Notes under the pieces: generated by a model
Database searches by the model: none
Seen by the model: only the letters and a program-made list of their open reading frames with translations
What the model was told of the DNA's origin: nothing
Program-made: the position numbers and the translations under genes
Shown: positions 167 through 12,187 of the stretch, in pieces
Position numbering within the stretch: the first letter of the stretch is position 1
Layout: each line of letters begins with the position of its first letter
Origin: Verrucomicrobiia bacterium
GTDB taxonomy: Bacteria; Verrucomicrobiota; Verrucomicrobiia; Opitutales; Opitutaceae
DNA length: 13,166 bases
Reading direction: 5' to 3'
Assembly (NCBI GenBank): GCA_030424825.1
Contig: JAUHWE010000053.1
Location: forward strand, 1-13,166

Positions 167-565
167 CTATATTTTGGTATCGCCGGATTCCAATGAGAAA
201 AGCGTACCACCTTGACTTCCAATAATCAGCCTCCCGTTAGCAAAGACTGGCGAGGCGATCAACGACGCCCCTAGTTCGATTTTCCAAAGTTCTGCCCCGT
301 CCGCTTGGTTGACGGCATAAAGCCAGCCGTCGGTCGAGCCGACCACCACCGCATCGCTGAAGGCTAAAGGAGAGCTGTCCACCCTGCCTGATGTCTGGTA
401 CGTCCATGCGGCCACTCCCGTTTCCCGATTGATCGCGTGAAGCCGCTTGTCGCGCGAACCAATGAACACGTGGGTCTCATTGACTGCGGGCGAGCTAAAG
501 AAAGGAAACTGACGGTCTGAATAAGTCCAGAGCTGACCTCGGTCGCCCGGATCGAAAGCCAGCAC
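167..565 (-). pseudogene. C-terminal part of the frameshifted PQQ-like beta-propeller lipoprotein gene
   Basis: This frame continues the propeller begun at 1322, but is shifted by one base relative to it. It can be read from the GTG at 565 (VLAFDPGDRGQLWTYSD...) and gives 132 residues with clear PQQ-like repeats: AINRETGVAAWTYQ, YAVNQADGAELWKIEL and a terminal SLESGD. It has no signal peptide and no start context of its own, so it would not make a normal exported protein by itself. The two frames abut at bases 565-569. In the first frame the sequence reads ...DGIGY, and in the second it resumes at VLAFD, so little of the fold is lost. It is best read as the 3' half of one disrupted gene covering 167-1322. 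The stop lies 10 nt before the downstream radical-SAM-like gene. Confidence 0.75.
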
Positions 566-1322
566 TGTATCCTATGCCGTCGTACACCGCTACGGAGCAA
601 GGAATGTACGCATTCGTTTCATACTGCTCAATCGATTCCCCATTCTCGAGATTAACAATGTGAAGAAACGCGTCACAGCCCCCAAAAATGATTCGGCGAT
701 CATCTAGCATCGCAGGCGACCCATTTATGAGGTTGTCTGTTTGGTAGGTCCAGACATCGCTACCATCCGCTGCCTTGAGGCACCGAAGCATTCCATCGTT
801 ACCCGCTACGAGAACCCATGGCTCCCCATCGATCGGGCTTCGCGCCAAATTCGCTCCCGCAGAGACTTTGTCATCAAACTGGCGACGCCACTGCTCTTCT
901 CCGGTCTTGCGATCCAAGGCATAAAATTGTCCATCGTTGGCACCAAAAAATACCCGCTCTGAGGTAATCGCGGGTTCCGACTCGATGACATCCCCCGTTT
1001 CAAAACGCCAGGTTTCCTCCCCTGTCTCGAAATCAACCGCGAAAAAGACCCCGTCATCCGTTCCAAAATAGACCTGATTCTCAAAGACGCCGGCATCCCC
1101 GGATATCGGAGCACCGGCATCGAAACTCCAAGCGATTCGGGGAGAAGTAATTACCTTGTCGGGAATCGAGCCGCTCATGAACGAGCTTCCGCGAGGCAAC
1201 GCCCAAGACTTTGTTTGAAATCCTAGTTCCTCAACTTCCGCTGCATTCTTATCCTCGGAATCCTGCGACTTGCAGGATGCCAGAATCAAAGTCAGCAAAA
1301 GCAAACTGGATGCTTTCATCAT
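495..1322 (-). CDS. PQQ-like beta-propeller lipoprotein, N-terminal part, truncated by a frameshift
   Basis: The protein begins MMKASSLLLLTLILASCKS, a lipoprotein signal with lipobox LASC, so Cys17 would be lipidated and the protein anchored in the cell envelope. From about residue 65 it has repeated PQQ-like (PF13360-type) blades, each a strand followed by a D.(E/K)TGEE.W turn: AVDFETGEETWRFE, ALDRKTGEEQWRRQ, CLKAADGSDVWTYQ. These repeats do not by themselves show that PQQ is bound; BamB-like scaffolds share them. After GIGY (Tyr252, codon 567-569) the frame leaves the propeller and ends in an unrelated tail (SAGFRSGRPRS...) at 495. The rest of the propeller lies in another frame at 167-565. 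The ATG overlaps the stop of the alcohol dehydrogenase gene as ATGA, suggesting translational coupling. It is either a real pseudogene or a sequencing or assembly error. Confidence 0.8.
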   Translation of the reverse strand: MMKASSLLLLTLILASCKSQDSEDKNAAEVEELGFQTKSWALPRGSSFMSGSIPDKVITSPRIAWSFDAGAPISGDAGVFENQVYFGTDDGVFFAVDFETGEETWRFETGDVIESEPAITSERVFFGANDGQFYALDRKTGEEQWRRQFDDKVSAGANLARSPIDGEPWVLVAGNDGMLRCLKAADGSDVWTYQTDNLINGSPAMLDDRRIIFGGCDAFLHIVNLENGESIEQYETNAYIPCSVAVYDGIGYSAGFRSGRPRSALDLFRPSVSFL

Positions 1323-2473
1323 ACGCGTTCAACGACGTCAGATAGGGCACTCGAGTAGAGGGCCTCAAAATCAGCCTGGCCGACAGGGCGGGGATTGAAT
1401 CGACCGGTCCATTGCTGGGATGCGCCCGCAGCCAACTTGCCGACGTCCGGAGATTCCACCCCTAATGCTGACAGGCTTCTCAAACCAGCACTCGCTACCA
1501 ATGTATTTACCCATTCAGCCATATCCACCTTCTTCGCTCCGTTGCTCGGAATAAACGATTCATAAGCGTGATAGATTTCATTCACCTCAGGATCTTCTCG
1601 ATTAAATCGAATGACGTGAGGGAGCATCAACGAGACCGCATGCCCATGGGTCACACCAAAAAACGCAGTCAGCGGATTCGCGCACGCGTGGGCGGCCCCA
1701 AGCATGCTATTCTCGATCGCCAAACCCGCTAGAGCGGCTCCGAGCAGCATGTTGCTTCGATCCTCCGGAAGGGATGTCCCGGTAATTACGGTGTGAATCG
1801 ACCGAGCGAGCAGTCGGAAGGCTTCCAACGAGTGAATCTTGGAAATAGGGTTTCGCGGAATGCATACCGCGGTTTCCAATGCGTGTGCCAACGCGTCCAG
1901 TCCGGTCAAGCTCGCCACTCGCTTGGGTTGTGATGCGGTCAAATCAGGATCCAGCAACGCTACGCGAGCCAGCGCTTTAGAATCTCCGCACGCCATCTTA
2001 ACGTGTGTCTCGTCATCGCTCACGAGCGCGTAAGATTGGCATTCGCTCCCCGTACCCGAGGTTGTGGGGATCGCGATGAAAGGCAGCATGGGTCGGGTGG
2101 CTTTTCCGTATCCATGATAGTCCTTCATCTCACCTCCATTGGTTAAAAGAAAATTGCAGCCTTTGGCAGTGTCCATACTGCTGCCGCCTCCCAATCCAAT
2201 CAGGACGTCTATTTTTGCTTCCTGAGCAAAGTCCCTGCAATTCGATATACAATGATTCGTCGGGTTTTCCTGAACACCATCGAAGAGCACTGCCTCGCAA
2301 CCGGCTTTCTCAAGGACCGAAAGGGCTCTGTCCGCGTGCCCAGCGGCACGAATTCCTTTGTCCGTGACAATAAGCGCTTTTGAGCCATCGATTTCTTTGA
2401 TGAACTCCGGCAGCTTCTCAAGCATCCCGGGACCGAAGGCGATCCGCGGACTGGGTCTCGTAACGAAATCCAC
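1319..2473 (-). CDS. Iron-containing alcohol dehydrogenase (group III, FucO-like fold)
   Basis: Likely interconverts an aldehyde and a primary alcohol with NAD(P)H and a divalent metal, in the cytoplasm. Numbered from the chosen GTG start, the protein has 384 residues, the usual family length. The dinucleotide-binding motif GGGSSMDTAK lies at 95-104, followed by IPTTSGTGSE. All four expected metal ligands are present: Asp193 and His197 (GLDALAHALE), His262 (AAHACANPL) and His276 (VTHGHA), with the same spacing as in FucO. The open frame extends to an ATG at 2560, but that would overlap the upstream gene by 85 nt, so I chose the GTG at 2473, 2 nt after that gene's stop. No clear Shine-Dalgarno sequence precedes it. 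The 3' end overlaps the propeller lipoprotein gene by 4 nt. Its place next to an ALDH-like gene suggests it takes the aldehyde on to the alcohol. The family is certain; the substrate is unknown. Confidence 0.93.
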   Translation of the reverse strand: MDFVTRPSPRIAFGPGMLEKLPEFIKEIDGSKALIVTDKGIRAAGHADRALSVLEKAGCEAVLFDGVQENPTNHCISNCRDFAQEAKIDVLIGLGGGSSMDTAKGCNFLLTNGGEMKDYHGYGKATRPMLPFIAIPTTSGTGSECQSYALVSDDETHVKMACGDSKALARVALLDPDLTASQPKRVASLTGLDALAHALETAVCIPRNPISKIHSLEAFRLLARSIHTVITGTSLPEDRSNMLLGAALAGLAIENSMLGAAHACANPLTAFFGVTHGHAVSLMLPHVIRFNREDPEVNEIYHAYESFIPSNGAKKVDMAEWVNTLVASAGLRSLSALGVESPDVGKLAAGASQQWTGRFNPRPVGQADFEALYSSALSDVVERV

Positions 2474-2475
2474 TA

Positions 2476-3927
2476 TTACGCGATTTTTAATGCCTTCGAT
2501 TGTATCGCCCGTCGGCGATAGAGAAACTCGAATAAGTTTCCTTCGTGTGGCTGCTCCCACTGCACCCAGTTTGTGGGCACTGACCCTAAATTCAGTCGAT
2601 CAATATCGGGACTGGCCATAAGATCCCTCATCCACGCTTCGTTCTCAGTCACAGCGGATACAACCAGAGTAGATCCAATGGCATCGAGCATTTCCGCTTG
2701 AGGGCGTTCCACGACACTCACAAACGGGAACATGTATTCTGTGTTGGCCAGCGGGTGATTCGGGTCGGAACAGGCGATTAGCGTGGGGCAGAGAAACGTT
2801 TGTCCGTGCTTCTCTACCAGGCGAGGACCTTTACGGTACTTGGCGGTGAGATCCACTGCTCCCGGTGTCTTGAGAGCTTCGTCAATGGCTTCATCCATCG
2901 CTTTGGCGAAATCGGCATTGGCAAAGCCGCAAAGCAGAGCGTCTTTGTCGTCACGCGCCCTTGGCTCAACGGTTGCCAGCTTTTTGGCCATGGCATTGGA
3001 AATCTCCTCGAAATGGGATGGCACCATTACCGAAGAAGCGTTTATGCAGCTTCGTCCCCCATTGGCGGATACCGATTCAACCATTATATCCAAATGCTTT
3101 TCCCATTCGTTCGCCATGTCCTCGCCAATCAGCACCTTGCTCCTTCCAGAACCGTGGACCTGAATATTGCTGTACTTAGCGTATTTTTTTACAGTCGCGT
3201 CGCTTCCAAAAACAATACCGCGTCCACAAGAGAGAAGAATCGCATCACCACCCTCATGCGTTGTCGGGTAGAAGCCAAACGCTTCTTTGGGAAAGCCCGC
3301 TTTAATCATCGCCTGGATAATCCGATAGGGAGTCAGCGGGTCTTCGCGTCCTGGCTTTAGAAATACAGGTGTCTTCATCACCAGAGCCGGCAGCCACAAA
3401 GAATTAACCCCAGGGGAATTACTCGGCAAGGTAACGCCTAGGCTATCCGCTGTCGGGAAAAAATTCATATCGATGTCTCCCAGGCGAGCGCAGCCGTTGT
3501 CAAAAAGCTCAGGTGGCAAACCACGAGTCAGTCCCGCCAGTACCGCACGAATGTTTTTCAAAGCTGCCGCCACCTTGAACATGTTCGATCGACAAAGGGA
3601 GTGCGGCAAACCCGTCAGCTCTGAAAGCGCCGTTACGTAATCCGATATCCCTTGCACTTCCCCATCGATGCCAAACGGAAGTTCTCCATCCAGATAAATG
3701 TCAGCCGCTTTCTCGGCGTAGCTAAGCAGGGTGTCCGCTGGAATGGCCCTGAGGGCAGCTCGACCCTTCTCGATTGAGAGTTTATCGCGGCGTATGATTC
3801 CGGCGTTTGCCACGCTGACCTCCAGGCGCGCCCCAGATTTCAACACCTTCCCCAGGTCATTGGTGTCCAAACTTTTGTACACCTCGCCGAACCGGAGAAC
3901 TGGTAAATGTGATACTTTCTCTTCCAT
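2476..3927 (-). CDS. Aldehyde-dehydrogenase-superfamily protein, probable acyl reductase (LuxC-like role)
   Basis: 483 residues from the ATG at 3927. An in-frame TTG at 3951 would add 8 residues and is less likely. ALDH-fold landmarks are present in order: LPSNSPG (about 167-173, the position of the catalytic asparagine loop), FLKPGREDP (189-197, NAD(P)-binding lysine) and the nucleophile Cys294 in GGRSCINAS. Where oxidative ALDHs have the general-base glutamate (ELGGK), this protein has VHGSGRSK (257-264), with no Glu. Loss of this Glu is known in CoA-acylating ALDHs and fits a thioester or acyl-adenylate reductase better than an aldehyde oxidiser. It lies 69 nt after an adenylate-forming enzyme gene and 2 nt before the iron ADH gene, so I infer it reduces an activated acid to the aldehyde. 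The superfamily is sure. The direction and acyl carrier (CoA, AMP or enzyme thioester) are inference. Confidence 0.88.
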   Translation of the reverse strand: MEEKVSHLPVLRFGEVYKSLDTNDLGKVLKSGARLEVSVANAGIIRRDKLSIEKGRAALRAIPADTLLSYAEKAADIYLDGELPFGIDGEVQGISDYVTALSELTGLPHSLCRSNMFKVAAALKNIRAVLAGLTRGLPPELFDNGCARLGDIDMNFFPTADSLGVTLPSNSPGVNSLWLPALVMKTPVFLKPGREDPLTPYRIIQAMIKAGFPKEAFGFYPTTHEGGDAILLSCGRGIVFGSDATVKKYAKYSNIQVHGSGRSKVLIGEDMANEWEKHLDIMVESVSANGGRSCINASSVMVPSHFEEISNAMAKKLATVEPRARDDKDALLCGFANADFAKAMDEAIDEALKTPGAVDLTAKYRKGPRLVEKHGQTFLCPTLIACSDPNHPLANTEYMFPFVSVVERPQAEMLDAIGSTLVVSAVTENEAWMRDLMASPDIDRLNLGSVPTNWVQWEQPHEGNLFEFLYRRRAIQSKALKIA

Positions 3928-3996
3928 CTTATTTGCTTGAAGCTTCTTCAAGGTAGCAATCGCTCAGAGAGCGACCGGCTGTCTCAAATCAAAATC

Positions 3997-5082
3997 CTAA
4001 TAAACGCCTTCTATCACTTTTTTCTTCGTCGATTCGAAGGGGCGTACATCCCCTACTCCATCCCATGGAAATAAATCACATGGTCTACGCCGGATGGCCT
4101 CATCCCGTTCCAGAAATCTTGGCATGAAGAACTCCTTGGTCATCGTGGTCAGTTCCACTCGCCCGTAGGCATCATAGTCAACGCCCTGGGTGGAATCCTT
4201 CGGATCGACGATCCTCAATACGGCTCTCGGCTGGGGAGCATAATATGTCAGGCTGTAGTTGTCTTCCGCTGACAAAGGTCGACTGATCGCCAAACCCATC
4301 AGCGTGTTTCCATAAGTTGGGGCAAAATTAACTTTTCCTTCCAAAACCTCTTCTGTAAGGAATCTTACATATTGAGGAGTCATCGTGGTGCCTCCAACAA
4401 AAACGCCCTTGATTCCCGCTTGAGGAATCGAAATCCGTTCTGCCAAAGCTTCCAGAATCGTCGGAGTCGTGAACATGCAACCGATATTACGCCCTTTAAG
4501 AATCGTGATCGCCTGCTCCACAACATGCTCTTTGTACTTCCGAGCCATATCGTACTCGCCATCGCGAATCAGTCGTTTCACCCAGCGAGGATCCAAATCG
4601 ATAAAGTAGCAGGCGCCACCGCGTACATTCGCTAAGTGCTCAATCGCTAGACGCAATCGGCGCGGACCCGTAGGGCCGACCATCAGCCAGTTGGCTCCTT
4701 TCGGGAAAAAATCGTCCGAGTAGAAATCGCTAAACTCGGAGTAATCCACTTTGTAGTCTTCCCACCCGATACGCTGCTTCGGCATCCCTGTGGTACCGCC
4801 GGTTTCGAATACATTGTAAGGTCGGTCTTTGAACGCCGCTGGAATAAATCGTGCTGGATCCGTGTCTCGCAAAACCTCGTCATCGAAATTCTCGAAGCGC
4901 ATCATGTCTTCGAAACTCGTGACTTCCGCGAGCGGATTCCAATCCGCTTCCTTTGCCCAGTCGAGCCAGTACGGGCAACCGGTTTCAGGCGAAAAATGCC
5001 ACTGGACCATATCGCGTGTATACTGGTCCAAATTCTCTTTGGCGGCATCCACCGCATTCGTAATGTCCATTGTTTGAGTCAT
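3997..5082 (-). CDS. ANL-superfamily adenylate-forming enzyme, EhpF/LuxE/PaaK-like
   Basis: Predicted to activate a carboxylic acid with ATP as an acyl-adenylate. The 361-residue protein carries the ATP P-loop signature ETGGTTGMPK (93-102), then FTTPT (204-208), VGGTTMTP (229-236), TYGNT at 256-260 in place of the usual YG.TE, YGRVELT (306-312) and GVGDVRPF (342-349, A8-like hinge). It ends 12 residues after that. Phenylacetate-CoA ligases run to about 430 residues, so the C-terminal lid with the catalytic lysine is missing or very reduced. Short ANL enzymes of this kind include LuxE (acyl-protein synthetase) and EhpF of griseoluteic acid biosynthesis, both working with a reductase; here the next gene encodes an ALDH-type reductase. 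A second ATG lies at 5070. No Shine-Dalgarno sequence was seen. The family is well supported; the substrate is unknown. Confidence 0.85.
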   Translation of the reverse strand: MTQTMDITNAVDAAKENLDQYTRDMVQWHFSPETGCPYWLDWAKEADWNPLAEVTSFEDMMRFENFDDEVLRDTDPARFIPAAFKDRPYNVFETGGTTGMPKQRIGWEDYKVDYSEFSDFYSDDFFPKGANWLMVGPTGPRRLRLAIEHLANVRGGACYFIDLDPRWVKRLIRDGEYDMARKYKEHVVEQAITILKGRNIGCMFTTPTILEALAERISIPQAGIKGVFVGGTTMTPQYVRFLTEEVLEGKVNFAPTYGNTLMGLAISRPLSAEDNYSLTYYAPQPRAVLRIVDPKDSTQGVDYDAYGRVELTTMTKEFFMPRFLERDEAIRRRPCDLFPWDGVGDVRPFESTKKKVIEGVY

Positions 5083-5180: not shown

Positions 5181-6695
5181 CTAGGCTTTCTTTCTAAAGA
5201 ACTTGTCCAGAGTCTCCTGGGACGGTGCTTGAGTAAAAAGAGAAACGACGACCATGCAAACTGCGCAGGTTGCAAATATCACCGCAACCGGCATCACACC
5301 GCCTATCAGGTACTCTCCATTTTTTCCGAAATCGGACGCCGCAAACAGCAGCAACCAGGAAACCGCGCTTCCGATGACCGCAGCATAGGCTCCCGCTTTG
5401 GTCGCTTTTCTCCAGTAAATCGCCGCAAATACGAGAGGAAACAATCCCGCAAAACCGCTGAAGCACCAGATACCCAGCGAGAATACAGATCTCGGTTCCG
5501 CCAAAGTGAATAGGTACGTAACGAACACGATGGTACAGATAAAACCGCGCGCCATGACCACTTTTTGCGTCTCCGAGAAGCGGTTCTTCCCGAATGAGTG
5601 CACAACAATATCTTTGGTGAACATCGTCCCGACCGCCACGAACTGGGAATCGAGTGACGACATAATCGCCGCCATGATCCCCGCTGTTACGAGGCCTCCA
5701 ATGATCGGAGTAGTCAGTTTTCCAACCATCATTCCCAAAACCGCGTTAGGACTGGTCCCTGCCGGTATGACCGGGGTCACCCCGTCAGGCATCACCGCCC
5801 CTGTTGCCCAAAGACCGATAAGTATGCAAGGTATCCACGTCAGCATGATCGCGATGGGATGGGCCACAAGCGTGAGCCGAAACGACTTCGCCGATTTGGC
5901 CGTCAGGCAATTCTGAAACAAATGCGGAAACATTCCCACTGAGAGCGGGATAAAACAATAGGACAGGAACTGCATCTCCGTCACGTTCCCCGCCCGGACC
6001 GCCTTACTGGGATCCGCCATCGCTGATGCCGCCTGCATGCCACCTAGCTTGGAAGAAATGGTGACGAATGCGATAAATCCCATTACGATGAATACACACG
6101 TTTGAAACGTATTCGCCCACGCTGCGCTTCTAACCCCGCCAGCAAAGATATAGTACAAGACCACACAAGAGATCACCAACATCGTGAGCCACCGTGGGAC
6201 CGCTCCGCCTGTTTCAGAAAACAGCTCGGGGAATGCCCCTCGAGTTACCCCTTGCATGACGCTTCCAGCTCCCATCAGGCCAACCAGAAGGTAGGGGATT
6301 ATCAATCCCACTAGAATCGGAAATAAGAGATACCCCAACTTGCTGCTTTCAAAACGCTCCCGGAAAAACTCGATTTGCGTATGGAACCCGTTGCGCTTTC
6401 CGAGCGCCCAAAGAGGCAACCCGACGAGGAAAAAACACGCAGAGTGAATGAGAGCCGATGAAGACGCCACTTTCCCATAAGTGGCGATTCCTACTCGATA
6501 AGACTCCCCCGTACTACCCACCATCGCAAATGCCGTCATGGTGGTTCCAAAGATTGACATGAACAGCACGAGCGGCCCGATCGACTGACTCGCGACAAAA
6601 TAGTCGTTAGAGTTTCCCCGGAAAAGGCGGCTGCTTAGATACCCCAGAACGAGGAGGAGTACTAAATAGATAACTACAATTAACGTCTGGGTCAT
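5181..6695 (-). CDS. Sodium:solute symporter family (SSS) transporter
   Basis: 504 residues with about 13 hydrophobic segments, the normal size for an SSS member. It imports a small solute with Na+ across the inner membrane. Family marks are an N-terminal helix followed by NDYFVASQSIGP (30-41), FAGGVRSAAWANTFQ (184-198, the conserved SSS motif after TM5) and AGIMAAIMSSLDSQF (338-352), which matches the Na2-site helix with its paired serines. The gene overlaps the upstream DUF3311 gene as ATGA, and a G-rich Shine-Dalgarno-like stretch (GAGGGG) precedes the ATG. DUF3311 plus SSS is a familiar pairing. The following gene encodes an acid-activating enzyme, so a carboxylate is a reasonable guess for the substrate, but family membership alone does not tell. 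Confidence 0.93.
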   Translation of the reverse strand: MTQTLIVVIYLVLLLVLGYLSSRLFRGNSNDYFVASQSIGPLVLFMSIFGTTMTAFAMVGSTGESYRVGIATYGKVASSSALIHSACFFLVGLPLWALGKRNGFHTQIEFFRERFESSKLGYLLFPILVGLIIPYLLVGLMGAGSVMQGVTRGAFPELFSETGGAVPRWLTMLVISCVVLYYIFAGGVRSAAWANTFQTCVFIVMGFIAFVTISSKLGGMQAASAMADPSKAVRAGNVTEMQFLSYCFIPLSVGMFPHLFQNCLTAKSAKSFRLTLVAHPIAIMLTWIPCILIGLWATGAVMPDGVTPVIPAGTSPNAVLGMMVGKLTTPIIGGLVTAGIMAAIMSSLDSQFVAVGTMFTKDIVVHSFGKNRFSETQKVVMARGFICTIVFVTYLFTLAEPRSVFSLGIWCFSGFAGLFPLVFAAIYWRKATKAGAYAAVIGSAVSWLLLFAASDFGKNGEYLIGGVMPVAVIFATCAVCMVVVSLFTQAPSQETLDKFFRKKA

Positions 6696-6913
6696 TCTTC
6701 TGTCCCCTCGTTTTCCTCTTCTACTAAGTATTTCGGCCAGGCAAACCTAACAATCACGAGCCAAGCAAACGCTGCCACTGCCGTGAACGCCATGTGGTAT
6801 GCCAAACCTATCGGAACAATACCCAAAACCAATGTAGCGTTGTCTTTGAGCCAGAAATCCTGGTGAAGCACAAACAGGACCAGCATGAACGCAATTACGA
6901 CACCCTTGCTCAT
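6692..6913 (-). CDS. DUF3311 small membrane protein, partner of SSS transporter
   Basis: A 73-residue hydrophobic protein with two likely membrane segments (about 4-17 and 28-56), separated by the conserved-looking HQDFW motif (17-21), and an acidic C-terminal tail (EEENEG). The string LHQDFW...ATLVLG.VPIGLAYH is typical of DUF3311 as I recall it. Members are usually encoded directly before an SSS transporter, as here, and are thought to be small accessory subunits; no biochemical role is known to me. The stop overlaps the symporter ATG as ATGA, and its own ATG overlaps the stop of the preceding propeller gene in the same way. A purine-rich stretch with GGGCGG lies shortly before the start. 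The three genes are probably translationally coupled. Confidence 0.88.
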   Translation of the reverse strand: MSKGVVIAFMLVLFVLHQDFWLKDNATLVLGIVPIGLAYHMAFTAVAAFAWLVIVRFAWPKYLVEEENEGTEE

Positions 6914-8466
6914 TTTCCGCCCTTCTTCATGGCGTACAAGTGCGTCTGAGTCGCTACGTAAAGCACATCGTTAGCCACTACCGGGCTGCTGTATATGGGG
7001 GTAAAAAACTCTATGGTAGCGAGCTCCTTCTTTTCTTTAGTCGCCGCAAGCACTACTAGCTGGCCGTCCTCGTTTGGCAAATACACTTTCCCATCAGCCA
7101 CAAGCGTAGATCCCCAAATTCGACTGTCGGTAGCGTGCACCCAGTTCACTTTACCTGTATCAACATCCAAACAATGAATATCTCCATCGTACTCGGCGAC
7201 GAAAATCATGCCGTTGTATATACTGGGAGTAGACACCGTTCTGCCAATGTCCTTGTAGGTCCAAATCGCTTTACCTGTGATATCGCCTTCCATCGATGCG
7301 TCGATAGCGCTCAGCATGCCTACACCATCACCGTGCTCGGGGTCCTGTCCGATCAACGCAAATGCTTTGTTGTCATAAATCACCACAGTACTGATGACCT
7401 CGCTAGGTCCCGGATAAGTCGCGTACTTGATCGGTTTTCCCTCTTTCATTCGGTACTCAGGCGGATTGCAATCGTAGCGAAACACTTCTTTTAAAATTTC
7501 AAACCCTTCAGAGCCCACAACCGGTTTCGGTTCAAAGCCGTAGCAGAATCCATCACCTCCGCCCCAAATAATGCGTGGAACTCCGTTGATTTCACCGTAA
7601 GCCGGTGAGCTCCAACTTGCGTGTAATACTCGCTCGGATACCTGAGACGCTTCTTCGCCTAACAATTTTCCGGTATTCTTGTCAATGGCAACCAACGCGG
7701 GAGAGAAAGGGGCCGGGATATTATTGTGTGACCAGTCCACCCCATTTGAAGTAGACACATACAGAATATCATCGACCACGAGCGGAGAGCAACTGCTGAC
7801 ATTATGCGGGAATACGCCCAATTCCTCTCGCATGTCGTAGATCCACAAAACATCGGCATGGCCATCTGTCAGCTCTACGGGATTCCCGTCGGCAGACATG
7901 TAGTTCGCTTCGTCTTTGAAAGGCCCATCGTTTCCGTTGGCCATTCCGTTTATGTCGAGACAGACTGCTTCACCACGATTTGTCACAATGTAGACTTTGT
8001 CACCATCAACTGCCGGTGAAGAGCAGAGACCGACATATTCCCAGTCACTCACCTTGCCCGCACCGAGTTTTGGTATCAGGAGCTGCCAGGCAAACTCTCC
8101 GGTCTTTTCGTCAAAGGCCATCAGCACACCTCGGTCACCGAGTTGATTCGGATCGCGTGGGGACTCGTTATTGGTTCCGGCGAAGACCTTACCTCCCGCC
8201 ACGGTCACATTTCCGTACGCTTGAGATCCCAGCTTAGCAACCCAGAGTACATTTTCTGTAGTTGAAAGGTCAATATTATCACTCCCAGACACATAATCCC
8301 CCGGCTCAACATTGACCGGCAAGTTCTTCGCTTCACCGACCATATTCCGGTCAAGGGTTCCTCCCCACATCGGCCAATCGGAACCATGGCTCTTGTGGTG
8401 GTTGGCGAACGATGCACCTCCCAGTGCCATTGCGGCTAAACCTATACTTACTTTATAAATACTCAT
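6910..8466 (-). CDS. Exported PQQ-like beta-propeller repeat protein
   Basis: 518 residues beginning with a Sec signal peptide (MSIYKVSIGLAAMALGGASFA), so the mature protein probably starts NHHKSHGSDWPMWGG and lies in the periplasm or envelope. PQQ-like blades run through the chain, with W/Y turn motifs such as AFDEKTGEFAWQLL (117-130), CLDVDTGKVNWVH (432-444) and LYVATQTHLYAMKK at the end, which closes the propeller. A large insert at about 175-260 breaks the repeat spacing. I see no adjacent Cys pair or other clear quinoprotein dehydrogenase signature, so it may be a scaffold or binding protein and not a PQQ enzyme. It starts 5 nt after the first propeller gene and overlaps DUF3311 by 4 nt, tying an envelope protein to the transporter. 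The ligand is unknown. Confidence 0.88.
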   Translation of the reverse strand: MSIYKVSIGLAAMALGGASFANHHKSHGSDWPMWGGTLDRNMVGEAKNLPVNVEPGDYVSGSDNIDLSTTENVLWVAKLGSQAYGNVTVAGGKVFAGTNNESPRDPNQLGDRGVLMAFDEKTGEFAWQLLIPKLGAGKVSDWEYVGLCSSPAVDGDKVYIVTNRGEAVCLDINGMANGNDGPFKDEANYMSADGNPVELTDGHADVLWIYDMREELGVFPHNVSSCSPLVVDDILYVSTSNGVDWSHNNIPAPFSPALVAIDKNTGKLLGEEASQVSERVLHASWSSPAYGEINGVPRIIWGGGDGFCYGFEPKPVVGSEGFEILKEVFRYDCNPPEYRMKEGKPIKYATYPGPSEVISTVVIYDNKAFALIGQDPEHGDGVGMLSAIDASMEGDITGKAIWTYKDIGRTVSTPSIYNGMIFVAEYDGDIHCLDVDTGKVNWVHATDSRIWGSTLVADGKVYLPNEDGQLVVLAATKEKKELATIEFFTPIYSSPVVANDVLYVATQTHLYAMKKGGK

Positions 8467-8471
8467 GCTGC

Positions 8472-10757
8472 TTAGTTGTTGGGCGTGATTTCAAGATTGT
8501 CTAAATAAACCCGCTTCTGGGCTTGTGGTGAAAGTGCGTAGATCGCCGGTGCCCCTTTCTCGTGAAGCCTGTCCACCGGTACTTCTATTGTCCATGCATC
8601 GGGCTCTGCCTGATCTCTTTCCCAGGCTTTCGCTTGAACGACTCCGGTACCGTCCCCGTTGTCTTTAATTGAGGTCTTTAAACGGTACCACGTATTTGCT
8701 TTAACATTGAAAGGGACGGATTCCTTGAGTCGGTCGTGATTACTGGAAACTTCTAGTATTCGCCAGTTACCGACAAGGGCGATCAAGTATCTCTGATTGA
8801 CCAGCCCAATGGAAGACATGATTCGGCGATTGCCGTCTGTGAGCACATCTGCGGAAAACGTGTAGTTGGATAGGTCGTGATGACCGACAAAATTCATCGT
8901 CCGCTGCTTGATTACGGAATCGAGAACATTGGTTACCACTTTTTCTCCTTCGCGCTCGATCACACTCCATTTGACGCGGGCTCCGAGCCAGGTTGATGGC
9001 GGAAACGAAACCGATTCACCCAGATGGTTCTTGGCGGTGAGATCGAAACTCTCAAAATCTTCCCGATAAGAGGGTCCTGCCACAATACGTCCCCGGGTGG
9101 TGCTTGTGATACCATTCGCGGTCACCTTAACAACGCCCGCTGCATAGTCAGCGTCTTTACGAACCGTCATCTTGTCTCCGGAAAAGCTGACTCCAAGCGG
9201 GCCTGCATCCCATTTTGCGCCATCCAGTTTCTTGATACGCTGCCCGATTTCGTTAAGGCCCCAAACGGAAAAGTCGACCGACTGGCCTTGCATCAGAGCA
9301 AATTCTGCCGGAACAATCTGGAGCGCTACGATTGTCTTGTCTTTAATCTTTTCCTGCGAGGCTTTGACGCCCACAAATTTCCCTTTGTTGTTTCCGAAGC
9401 AATGCAATGCCTCTTTCGTCTGAACAAAAACCTTGCCGGCATAAGCGGATGGAGCCGCCAAGCAAACTGCCCCCATATCGGCCTCGTTCAAAATTTCCCC
9501 GTGGTCGTCGTGTATTTTGACTACATAGGCTTTTCCGTCGGCCATCGGCACGTAAAGCTTGCCGTCCGCGTAGAGAGGGGAGGCATGGAGTTGGTCAGGC
9601 GCGAGTTTGAGTGACCAGATCGTCTCTCCTGTTTTCGCATCCACACAGAGAAGACTTCCGGTAGCGATCGTGCTGTAGACGCGTCCATCGTGGAGAACCG
9701 GAGAGCTGCTGAACGAGACATGTTCGTCGTTTCGCCAGACTTCATCCTTCTCCGTTAAAATAACCGGTTTATCACCCGACGGGTATTTTGACGGAACCCG
9801 ATAGCACACCAGCCGCCCTTTCGCAGTCGAGTCGATGTTCTCTTTACCATGAATGGCAATGAACTTGTCATCCCCGTAAGGCAAAACCGACGCATTAACT
9901 CCGCCCGTGGAAATCGTGACGCGCCACACGGGCTCACCGGTTCGAGCGTTGGAGCAAATAATACTGCCCGACCCCGTTCCCGCAATAAAGACGCGCCGCC
10001 CTTCAAGGTCAGTAAAGGTCGGCGAAGAATTTGAGCTGTCGACCGGCTTGATATCGGGAGCGGATGACCAAGCAAGCTCGCCGGTAAGCTTGTCAAAACC
10101 GTAGAATCGGTCCCCCGGAGGACCGCTTGGACCCCAATTCGCGGTGATGCCGCGAAAGATGACAAAGTCTCCATCGATGACAGGACCGCCCGTCCTGCCA
10201 TTCGGAAAGGTCAAGCGCCAGAACTCCTCGAGCATCGAGTGCTCCCAGAGCTTGTTTCCGTCCCGGTCAAACGCGAGGGCCAGTCCCGAAGTGGGCATGA
10301 AATAGACATTGCCCGTATCCGGATCGACACAGGGCGAACCGATGCCGTAGCGATTATACACATTGTCGCTTAGAAAGTCGCGAGAGCGATACTCCCAAAG
10401 CTTCTTTCCGGTATCCGCATCAAGGCAGAGCAAGGTTTCTTCGACGAGTTTCCCCTCGTTCTCTTCGTAGTAGCCAAAAACATAAACTCTCCCATCAGCT
10501 ATGACCGGAGCTCCGCCACCATTCACCGGATAGCTCCAAAGGTGGCTATCCCCATCCAGATCCAACGAATCCGGAAGATTCTTTTCTAGTGAGACTCCCG
10601 TCTGGAGGGGGCCTCGCCAAGAAAGCCAGCCATCGACGCTCTTAGCCGTCAGGGTCGGAGCCAGCGTGACACCCATCAACAAAAGCGACAGAATCGCGCG
10701 TTTTGATATCGAGAGAATGTTGTTTATCGGCGAAACGCCTTCGGTTTTCCCATGCAT
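8472..10757 (-). CDS. Large exported multidomain PQQ-like beta-propeller protein, first gene of the operon
   Basis: 761 residues. A 20-residue polar lead precedes a hydrophobic signal segment (AILSLLLMGVTLAPTLTA, 21-38), so export is likely. The mature part begins DGWLSWRGP (42-50), a common opening of exported quinoprotein-like proteins. Residues about 70-455 form the propeller, with blades ending in motifs such as CLDADTGKKLWEY (111-123), GFDKLTGELAWS (220-231) and CVDAKTGETIWS (371-382). Residues about 475-560 look like an Ig-like domain (VALQIVPAEFALMQGQSVDFSV...). Residues about 565-760 resemble a concanavalin/laminin-G-like sandwich (YREDFESF ... VYLDNLEI), often a sugar- or surface-binding module. 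No ATG other than 10757 precedes the signal, so that start is kept although no Shine-Dalgarno sequence is visible. It is the first gene of the minus-strand operon. The domain ends are approximate. Confidence 0.88.
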   Translation of the reverse strand: MHGKTEGVSPINNILSISKRAILSLLLMGVTLAPTLTAKSVDGWLSWRGPLQTGVSLEKNLPDSLDLDGDSHLWSYPVNGGGAPVIADGRVYVFGYYEENEGKLVEETLLCLDADTGKKLWEYRSRDFLSDNVYNRYGIGSPCVDPDTGNVYFMPTSGLALAFDRDGNKLWEHSMLEEFWRLTFPNGRTGGPVIDGDFVIFRGITANWGPSGPPGDRFYGFDKLTGELAWSSAPDIKPVDSSNSSPTFTDLEGRRVFIAGTGSGSIICSNARTGEPVWRVTISTGGVNASVLPYGDDKFIAIHGKENIDSTAKGRLVCYRVPSKYPSGDKPVILTEKDEVWRNDEHVSFSSSPVLHDGRVYSTIATGSLLCVDAKTGETIWSLKLAPDQLHASPLYADGKLYVPMADGKAYVVKIHDDHGEILNEADMGAVCLAAPSAYAGKVFVQTKEALHCFGNNKGKFVGVKASQEKIKDKTIVALQIVPAEFALMQGQSVDFSVWGLNEIGQRIKKLDGAKWDAGPLGVSFSGDKMTVRKDADYAAGVVKVTANGITSTTRGRIVAGPSYREDFESFDLTAKNHLGESVSFPPSTWLGARVKWSVIEREGEKVVTNVLDSVIKQRTMNFVGHHDLSNYTFSADVLTDGNRRIMSSIGLVNQRYLIALVGNWRILEVSSNHDRLKESVPFNVKANTWYRLKTSIKDNGDGTGVVQAKAWERDQAEPDAWTIEVPVDRLHEKGAPAIYALSPQAQKRVYLDNLEITPNN

Positions 10758-10811
10758 AACGATTAAATGTCGTAAGTTCAGACGATTGGATCCCTTTTGC
10801 GGTTTCCGCTC

Positions 10812-10842
10812 TTTATAAATGAATGTAAGAAGAAATTATTAA
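10812..10842 (-). promoter_or_regulatory. Candidate promoter of the minus-strand operon
   Basis: On the minus strand TATAAA (10817 down to 10812) resembles a -10 box, 54 nt before the ATG at 10757. The AT-rich TTAATA (10842 down to 10837) is a weak -35 at 19 nt spacing. Just downstream, around the expected start point, lies the inverted repeat GCGGAAACCGC (10799-10809), which could be an operator. A further short repeat GTCTC-CTGA-GAGAC lies at 10853-10866. The match to sigma-70 consensus is modest, so this is a suggestion based mainly on position before the first gene of the operon. Confidence 0.25.
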
Positions 10843-11564
10843 CTGGGATTCGGTCTCCTGAGAGACGGTTTGTGTGTCGCATTTTTTGGGTAAGAGAATC
10901 TAAGCGATGAAATTCGGCTCATCTAAAGACAAAAAGAAAGCTTCTGACAACCTGGATCCGCTAATTTTCCCAGGATTATCCGGCACTTTCAGTATTATGC
11001 AGCTGGAATTTCCATATTCGCTACCAATTTTTACTTTTCAGCCGCATTATTGGACAGGAAAACGCGAACACCCTACATCTAGATCAGAGATCGATCTTCA
11101 TTTGATTTTCTAAATTTCAGAATCAATACAAACCTCAAATGCCAAGGACAACCTCTTCGATTGGATCGATTGAGTGGGCAACGCCAATCATCGGGACCGA
11201 CAGCCGCCCTACCTTACACGACAGGGCCCGCCTCCCCCTCAAACCGCACGAAGAGAGGAACCGTATCCAGCCCTGATCCACTCCTCACCCGGAAGGGCAT
11301 TCCCAATGCTTATCGGAAACTTTAAAGATAGCGAACTTGTGATTTACAATCTTGGCCCTGATCCGACGGACTCGCTCGGCCCAACCAGAACTCGCGAAAC
11401 GGCTTCTAAGCGCAAGCAACCGCTGGGCAGTAGTCTTATACCCCCAGATGGAGTCTCCAAACCTCAACTACGATCCAAATGATACTTGGCGTCGACACAG
11501 GGGACGCATTTTCTCAGCAATCCTTCGTTGTAAAAGCAAGAAGAGTATCGCGACAAAAGCGAGA

Positions 11565-11584
11565 GACCCGTCCTAGGACGGGTC
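11565..11584. terminator. Perfect 20-bp palindrome, possible terminator of the dinB-like gene
   Basis: The 20 bases are an exact inverted repeat. As RNA they form an 8-bp GC-rich stem (GACCCGTC / GACGGGTC) with a CTAG loop. It lies 54 nt after the stop of the minus-strand dinB-like gene. On plus, eight T's (11595-11602) follow 10 nt after the stem; on minus only a weak T-rich tail (CTCGCTTTT) follows. It is therefore not a textbook terminator for either strand, but its position at a gene end and its strong stem make termination or mRNA 3'-end protection likely. Confidence 0.45.
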
Positions 11585-11638
11585 CAACACAGAATTTTTT
11601 TTGACTCACTTTGCCTTACCAACCGGTTCCTTCCGGCT

Positions 11639-12187
11639 CTACTGGCTCCAAGGAGGCACTACACCTGATGAACGAGCGTAAGCAATTAGTTGCCCTAAGT
11701 GCTCGTAGGCGTGTCCGCCTAGCACCAGTACCGCACCCATCTTATTTGATTCGTTACCAAACAGGTTTATTGATTCCGCAAGGCTGGCTTCGTCAAGACC
11801 TCCGACCGCTTCCTTAACAAACTGGATTGAATCTTTGAGAACCTTGATCGTGTCTTCTTTGCTTTTAATCGTCTTGTCGAACTGACGCGGATTAATTCCC
11901 GCAGGCATCTCCTTACCAAGAAAGCGCGCCCCGAGTCCGTAGTTTGCTCCTGCTACGTGCAGTATCGCTTCACGAACAGAACGAATCCCTTCAGCGGGAC
12001 GCCATTCCATTCCTTCCTCGGAAAAGGCTTCTGCGAGGCTGACCATCTTGTCGGTTTCACTTCCGTAGGTCCCTAGAAAAGTCTGCTGAAAAAGTGAATG
12101 GCCGCCTTTTTTATGATGATTAGCAATCGCTGATCCTAAAAGCCCCCACGTCAGGAGAGCCGCTAATAATAGTTTTGAAGTTTTCAT
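11639..12187 (-). CDS. Secreted DinB-family (DinB/YfiT-fold) protein
   Basis: 182 residues with a Sec signal peptide (hydrophobic 5-20, cleavage probably after SAIA), leaving a mature start NHHKKGGHS. The rest is a DinB-like four-helix bundle. The family's three metal-binding histidines fit His77 (AILHVAGANY), His159 and His163 (GGHAYEHLGQLIAYAR), and the end VVPPWS is typical. Cytoplasmic members include thiol-dependent S-transferases and DNA-damage-induced proteins. Exported versions are common in Verrucomicrobiota and Acidobacteriota as I recall, with unknown function. It is probably a single-gene unit on minus, with a promoter-like sequence ahead (12229-12257) and a palindrome behind. No Shine-Dalgarno sequence is visible before the ATG. 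The family is sure; no reaction can be assigned. Confidence 0.9.
   Translation of the reverse strand: MKTSKLLLAALLTWGLLGSAIANHHKKGGHSLFQQTFLGTYGSETDKMVSLAEAFSEEGMEWRPAEGIRSVREAILHVAGANYGLGARFLGKEMPAGINPRQFDKTIKSKEDTIKVLKDSIQFVKEAVGGLDEASLAESINLFGNESNKMGAVLVLGGHAYEHLGQLIAYARSSGVVPPWSQ

Follow-up and report, generated by a model that had tools for sequence, protein, structure and literature searches.

A conserved operon of Verrucomicrobiota with a predicted two-component aryl-carboxylate reductase and an iron alcohol dehydrogenase

Single-chain carboxylic acid reductases (CAR) convert acids into aldehydes at the expense of ATP and NADPH, and in LuxE/LuxC activation and reduction follow a two-part logic. 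For aryl acids a reductase divided over two genes is in print: grixazone biosynthesis uses the two-gene carboxylic acid reductase GriC/GriD (Suzuki 2007, as stated in PMC10179220), in which, according to PMC10179220, GriC forms the acyl-AMP and GriD mediates reduction to 3-amino-4-hydroxybenzaldehyde. Another pair, EhpF/EhpG, belongs to the phenazine cluster for D-alanylgriseoluteic acid in Pantoea; PMC3175449 refers to EhpF, on the basis of its published structure, as an atypical ANL protein and names EhpF to EhpO, except EhpJ, as converting phenazine-1,6-dicarboxylic acid into the antibiotic. The name EhpG is printed for a Proteus pair in a section of PMC11278526, and is applied here to the Pantoea aldehyde dehydrogenase (ALDH) by gene position. 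Here, we analysed a stretch of 13,166 nucleotides from a Verrucomicrobiia bacterium (assembly GCA_030424825.1, contig JAUHWE010000053.1; hereafter the window), in which genes for an ANL adenylase, an ALDH-fold reductase and an iron alcohol dehydrogenase (Fe-ADH) lie next to each other on one strand and in pathway order, as the original prediction for this DNA had stated (Table 1).

We propose, on sequence grounds and with a probability of about 0.62, that the ANL and ALDH proteins together act as an aryl-carboxylate reductase in two components, like EhpF/EhpG and GriC/GriD, and feed the Fe-ADH. The ANL protein would activate an aromatic acid as its adenylate, the ALDH-fold protein would bind the acyl group through its Cys and, using NAD(P)H, reduce it to the aldehyde, which the Fe-ADH would convert into the alcohol. 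What the data show is homology, active-site residues, gene linkage and co-occurrence; from these we infer each of the reactions, that the acid is aromatic, how the steps connect and what the end product would be. The originally predicted order of acid, acyl-AMP, aldehyde and alcohol remains the best-supported reading, with substrate and reactions standing as predictions.

The window ANL protein is a relative of EhpF, and acyl-adenylate formation is predicted from this relationship. Residues 8-361 of its 361 align with EhpF (3l2k, 3hgu; E 7.5e-49), and the score against the Pfam AMP-binding model is 29.2 bits, just below the cut-off of 29.9 bits. ANL enzymes have a layout with a mobile C-terminal domain; the window protein, like EhpF, stops where this domain would begin, and its terminal G-V-Y is invariant in 18/18 aligned sequences. 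In a quick tree built from 76 loci and five plasmid rows, five loci with ANL pieces shorter than 300 aa being omitted, the 76 loci form one group, its long branch starred, that is separate from the plasmid rows; these are themselves long-branched.

The ALDH-fold protein scores 60 bits against Pfam Aldedh and, as had been predicted, lacks the oxidative Glu. The catalytic Cys302 is conserved in 16/16 aligned sequences, whereas the general-base column, located through an alignment with KauB, holds H in 11, Q in two, and Y, L and R in one each, with Glu in 0/16. No close relative of the window ALDH was found in the PDB, and the Pantoea ALDH that adjoins the EhpF relative matches it with an E of 7e-33 over 77% of the query. 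The analogy to EhpF/EhpG is thereby borne out by sequence: both systems combine near-full-length ANL homology, a missing C-terminal domain, an ALDH gene directly downstream, and an ALDH with the same Cys and no Glu. They differ in that identity is only about 30% for ANL and 22-26% for ALDH, that phenazine genes are absent from the window, and that the window adds an Fe-ADH after the pair, together with transporter, propeller, radical SAM and chorismate-lyase-like (CL) partners.

The description of the Fe-ADH as metal-complete also holds. It scores 169 bits against its Pfam model, and D222, H226, H291 and H305, the presumed metal ligands by analogy with FucO, are present in 10/10 aligned sequences. 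Its start is probably the GTG at 2473, directly after the ALDH stop, rather than position 2560.

The original prediction had presented the operon as a split alternative to single-chain CAR. The overall chemistry would be the same, and the window indeed has two separate proteins, a reductase of ALDH fold and no carrier domain detectable with Pfam. Splitting a carboxylic acid reductase over two proteins is no novelty, however, since GriC/GriD is already published; as described in PMC10179220 it too consists of an AMP-binding protein and a separate reductase taking an aryl acid to the aldehyde, a likeness drawn from that description. Because the GriC/GriD and EhpF reactions are in print, the chemistry proposed for the pair has precedent. 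The core adds a member to a known kind of enzyme pair, and what is new is its operon context and the strict co-occurrence of its partners. Keyword searches of open-access titles and abstracts found no description of the conserved gene set as one pathway.

Conservation of the neighbourhood was examined as a test capable of refuting the prediction, and the neighbourhood proved to be kept in relatives. ANL relatives occur in 16/57 near genomes, the window's own included, and one scan of genome contigs gave 83, of which 80 were kept; carriers include Haloferula rosea KCTC 22201 (L078) and Luteolibacter marinus NBU1238 (L039). The neighbourhood set consists of these 80 loci and the window, with profiles built from the same loci; contig ends truncate many of them, and a number of the matches are weak. 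The counts omit L001-L016, which are repeated genomes with only about 4 kb each. Of 69 loci with 2.5 kb or more of sequence downstream, 52 have an ALDH gene on the same strand within 3 kb of ANL, and both ALDH and Fe-ADH are near ANL in 42/61 loci with enough flank. Given the 16/57 genomes, the 80 kept relatives and the 52/69 loci with ALDH, the three-gene association exceeds what chance would give.

Other partners recur with graded frequency. Profile matches in the 81 loci number 56 for ALDH, 54 and 53 for the beta-propeller proteins PropA and PropB, 48 for Fe-ADH, 39 for a third propeller, PropC, 37 for the sodium:solute symporter (SSS) and 34 for the radical SAM protein, followed by DUF3311 (28), CL (23), a glycosyltransferase (GT, 22), a halogenase-like flavoenzyme (FDH, 21), MarR and a TonB receptor (17 each), a thioesterase (TE, 15), Eam (12), PaaK (10) and MFS (10). 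Among the 56 loci that extend 6 kb upstream of ANL, 47 have PropA or PropB before it in the same orientation, and an SSS or MFS gene is upstream in 34/56 with enough flank. The SSS importer, named by the original prediction as a member of the set, is present in the window and is not constant: in ten loci it is replaced by an MFS protein of one family, mostly immediately before ANL, and in 22/56 neither lies within reach upstream. For two MFS proteins scanned the best NCBIfam match was the aromatic acid/H+ symporter (AAHS) model, at 75-79 bits.

Loci from two further phyla were also seen. Two Armatimonadota bins (L059, L060) carry near-identical ANL genes in the order PropA-PropB-SSS-ANL; ALDH was found neither in the L059 stretch nor in L060, which ends about 280 bases past ANL. 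In two Acidobacteria bins (L080, L084), ANL-ALDH-GT is followed at some distance by an ABC-ATPase-like gene and a permease-looking gene of 1071 aa, with three propeller genes on the opposite strand (weak PropA matches, 107-131 bits in L084) and no match to radical SAM or CL within the stretch examined. At another locus a protein encoded between ANL and ALDH (L083:1242-2585) had no NCBIfam match at 1e-5.

Co-occurrence was further assessed in a draw of 387 Verrucomicrobiota genomes searched with five profiles, the E cut-offs being fixed before each search (ANL 1e-40, ALDH 1e-60, radical SAM 1e-80, CL 1e-8, PropB 1e-90). ANL was detected in 20 genomes, one of them weakly (G322, 1.8e-43), and ALDH and radical SAM in the same 19, all of them ANL-bearing. 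All 17 genomes with CL fall within these 19 (G005 and G388 gave no match), as do 19 of the 34 with PropB. At genus level (n=197) the counts are 14 for ANL, 13 each for ALDH and radical SAM, 12 for CL and 24 for PropB. The chance of finding 17/17 CL genomes within 19/387 is 9e-28 and of 12/12 CL genera within 13/197 is 3e-18, both treating the samples as independent, which the genomes are not. G322 has no ALDH at threshold and none of the operon's other families beside its ANL-like gene, whose weakly ANL-like product (L126:6499-7503) had no NCBIfam match at 1e-5.

The association also holds where the genes are scattered. ALDH is distant from ANL or on another contig in G232, G235, G244 and G278; the first three have separate ALDH-FeADH and radical SAM-CL groups, and G278 has ALDH alone and a radical SAM-CL group. 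G119, G262, G279 and G113 carry radical SAM and CL on a contig other than that of ANL. As the gene set co-occurs even in such genomes, its linkage is not a matter of operon inheritance alone.

Outside these phyla, 72,556 plasmid records were searched, of which 28 contained an ANL relative and 18 an ALDH relative. Thirteen of the 18 ALDH accessions are among the 20 ANL rows listed, and the other five (two Streptantibioticus, three Pantoea) match that list by organism only. Pantoea, E. coli, Burkholderia and Streptomyces goshikiensis have the pair side by side; in NBC_00998 ALDH is about 2 kb from ANL on the opposite strand. A haloarchaeal Halalkalicoccus plasmid shares the window's gene order SSS-ANL-ALDH (L111:10559-14617). 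These outside relatives lie in phenazine-type or other antibiotic-type clusters, or near chorismate-pathway and aromatic-metabolism genes, and some of those in Streptomyces are labelled 'arylcarboxylate reductase'. Such phenazine-type and aromatic neighbours, together with the AAHS-like MFS, the divergent MarR, the weak likeness of CL to chorismate lyases and the halogenase grouping of FDH, point to an aromatic acid of some kind as substrate.

Several observations weigh against a two-component aryl-acid reductase feeding an Fe-ADH. No ALDH stands beside ANL in 17/69 loci, and two Streptomyces records have a polyketide synthase instead of ALDH after the ANL relative. Fe-ADH is not found nearby in the ALDH-bearing loci L080, L081, L084, L090 and L092, nor beside the ANL-ALDH pair in L125. 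Identity of ANL to EhpF-type rows in the alignment is just 30-36%, the chorismate-lyase assignment of CL is weak, and the AAHS match of the MFS proteins, at 75-79 bits, lies far below the curated cut-off of 419 bits. The 387 genomes are non-independent samples, and the genome-wide co-occurrence covers ANL, ALDH, radical SAM, CL and PropB.

The set of SSS importer, propellers and radical SAM protein listed by the original prediction is present in the window, the radical SAM gene with its start only, and it was incomplete: CL is also a partner, and in many relatives a longer operon adds FDH, GT, TE, a PaaK-like protein and an ABC exporter. In close relatives the order past the window end is radical SAM, CL, FDH, GT, TE, a small membrane protein, a PaaK-like protein, an ABC ATPase and an ABC permease. 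The radical SAM protein has the CX3CX2C cluster motif in 14/14 aligned sequences and scores below the curated cut-offs of the HemN, HutW and HemW models (193/325, 189/400 and 170/205 bits). CL has no match among NCBIfam models; by hhalign its match to UbiC (E 2.3e-4, probability 45%) is better than that to the control UbiA (0.064 and 0.9%), and weaker matches are to the Rv2949c-like Pfam family (E 0.03, in 1/19 proteins) and to 2nwi (E 0.077).

Halogenation is predicted for FDH, whose profile matches the flavin-dependent halogenases CndH, PltA, ChlB4 and CmlS with up to 247 bits (3e1t being CndH). The halogenase motifs W.W.IP and F..P..S.G are present in 11/11 aligned sequences. Verrucomicrobia are also mentioned in a paper on tryptophan halogenases of Aplysina sponges (PMC6644159). 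The score against the CmlS model stays below its cut-off (202/900 bits), and models of monooxygenases or maturases such as QhpG and LodB are matched as well, also below their cut-offs. In contrast to the named halogenases, the operon FDH is fused to the CL domain in one open frame in two relatives (L138:7810-9603 and L058:7696-9525). An aryl polyene cluster was ruled out by the absence of a ketosynthase among the operon proteins scanned, which included no carrier protein of such clusters either.

In the reading favoured here, the aryl acid would be imported by SSS/DUF3311 (or the AAHS-like MFS), made from chorismate by CL, or both, and the HemN-like radical SAM protein would perform a further step of the same pathway; with the long operon form the aryl unit would probably be halogenated or hydroxylated, glycosylated and exported. 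CL was not matched in G005, and its G010 copy contains two stops; both genomes keep SSS beside ANL, a pattern consistent with an acid that may alternatively be taken up.

A wider and more tentative proposal, which we hold at a little below even odds, is that these genes form a pathway not described before, of which Verrucomicrobiota and some Planctomycetota bins have the complete set and Acidobacteriota and Armatimonadota show a part. CL, a new HemN-like radical SAM subfamily and the EhpF/EhpG-type reductase with its Fe-ADH would together yield a small aromatic compound, in many carriers with halogen and sugar added, that might serve PropA/PropB as ligand or cofactor or be exported as a signal or metallophore. 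The operon would bring a two-component reductase of aryl acids, a kind that has been little studied, into phyla from which, to our knowledge, few natural products have been characterised. The strict co-occurrence ties this reductase to a radical SAM protein and a CL family without clear assignment, and the pathway could explain the role of one PQQ-like propeller family in these phyla.

The CL observations in G005 and G010 are also compatible with uptake and disposal, whereby an environmental aromatic acid would be imported and reduced to the alcohol, either to detoxify it or to serve as an electron sink, CL and FDH belonging elsewhere. The SSS or AAHS-like transporters and MarR genes that accompany ANL in many loci (MarR is divergent to PropA in 15/81) and the SSS-ANL-ALDH order in Halalkalicoccus also speak for this explanation. 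We nevertheless consider it unlikely, as CL and radical SAM are confined to genomes with ANL and ALDH at the thresholds used, even when unlinked, and the long operons carry export and glycosylation genes.

The propellers invite another explanation, an extracytoplasmic redox cycle in which they would oxidise the aryl alcohol outside and the acid would be re-imported and reduced inside. PropB, with many conserved polar residues in the alignment, is found in all 19 ANL+ALDH genomes, and a transporter gene lies between the propellers and ANL in many loci. This cycle is improbable, since 15 genomes hold PropB-like proteins without the pathway, no PqqE passed the cut-off in the genome that carries the window (about 89% complete, and the one searched besides controls), and in the PDB designed propellers, kinase-type propellers and BamB score above quinoprotein dehydrogenases. 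On the last two counts a PQQ-enzyme identity for the propellers seems unlikely.

ALDH folds can also oxidise or form thioesters, and the window protein might do either instead of making an aldehyde; the absence of Glu from 16/16 aligned sequences and the strict co-occurrence with the adenylase make this very improbable. Fatty-acid reduction of the LuxE/LuxC type, an analogy drawn originally from the same two-part logic, is the least probable, as Pfam finds AMP-binding and Aldedh in the window proteins and no LuxE/LuxC model at E <=0.01, so that membership of these families is not supported, and relatives from elsewhere are found in clusters of phenazine type and of other antibiotic types.

Within the window the aryl-carboxylate reductase genes belong to a single same-strand run that reads, from right to left, PropA, PropB, DUF3311, SSS, ANL, ALDH, Fe-ADH, PropC and the start of the radical SAM gene (Table 1).

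Table 1. Genes of the operon in the 13,166-nucleotide window
Feature	Coordinates	Strand	Evidence
PropA, 761 aa beta-propeller (PQQ_2) with extra C-terminal region, probably exported	8472..10757	-	Pfam PQQ_2, 111 bits
PropB, 518 aa beta-propeller, conserved polar residues, probably exported	6910..8466	-	Pfam PQQ_2, 83 bits; alignment
DUF3311 small membrane protein, 73 aa, 4-base overlap with SSS start	6692..6913	-	Window translation; Pfam DUF3311, 33 bits on close L017 relative
SSS sodium:solute symporter, presumed acid importer	5181..6695	-	Pfam SSF, 115 bits
EhpF-type ANL adenylase, 361 aa, without C-terminal domain	3997..5082	-	EhpF (3l2k, 3hgu) match; alignment
ALDH-fold reductase, EhpG-like; start TTG 3951 or ATG ~3927	2476..3951	-	Pfam Aldedh; Pantoea ALDH match
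Iron alcohol dehydrogenase, ~384 aa	1319..2473	-	Pfam Fe-ADH; metal ligands
PropC, lipoprotein-type beta-propeller, split reading frame	167..1322	-	Two ORFs; two-piece tblastn match to 391-aa L017 copy
HemN-like radical SAM gene, first 52 codons, cut by contig end	1..156	-	Compared with relatives

The frame of PropC breaks within 495-571, near 555-571, whereas the close relative L017 has one frame of 391 aa by tblastn; the split may be an assembly error or a real frameshift. Between PropA and a DinB-like gene (10760-11640, about 880 bases), where close relatives have the divergent MarR, no MarR match was found among open reading frames of at least 60 aa. The DinB-like protein itself, at 12187-11639, adjoins the operon, and the same family occurs in seven loci including the window.

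The first half of the conserved operon lies in the window. The genome of the window (about 89% complete, 5.5% contamination) has Opitutaceae/Opitutales bins of Verrucomicrobiota as nearest named relatives. A second contig of this genome, C609, starts with a 3' part of a radical SAM gene and goes on with CL, FDH, GT, TE, Eam, PaaK and ABC genes; judging by the gene order in relatives, it would be the continuation of the window operon.

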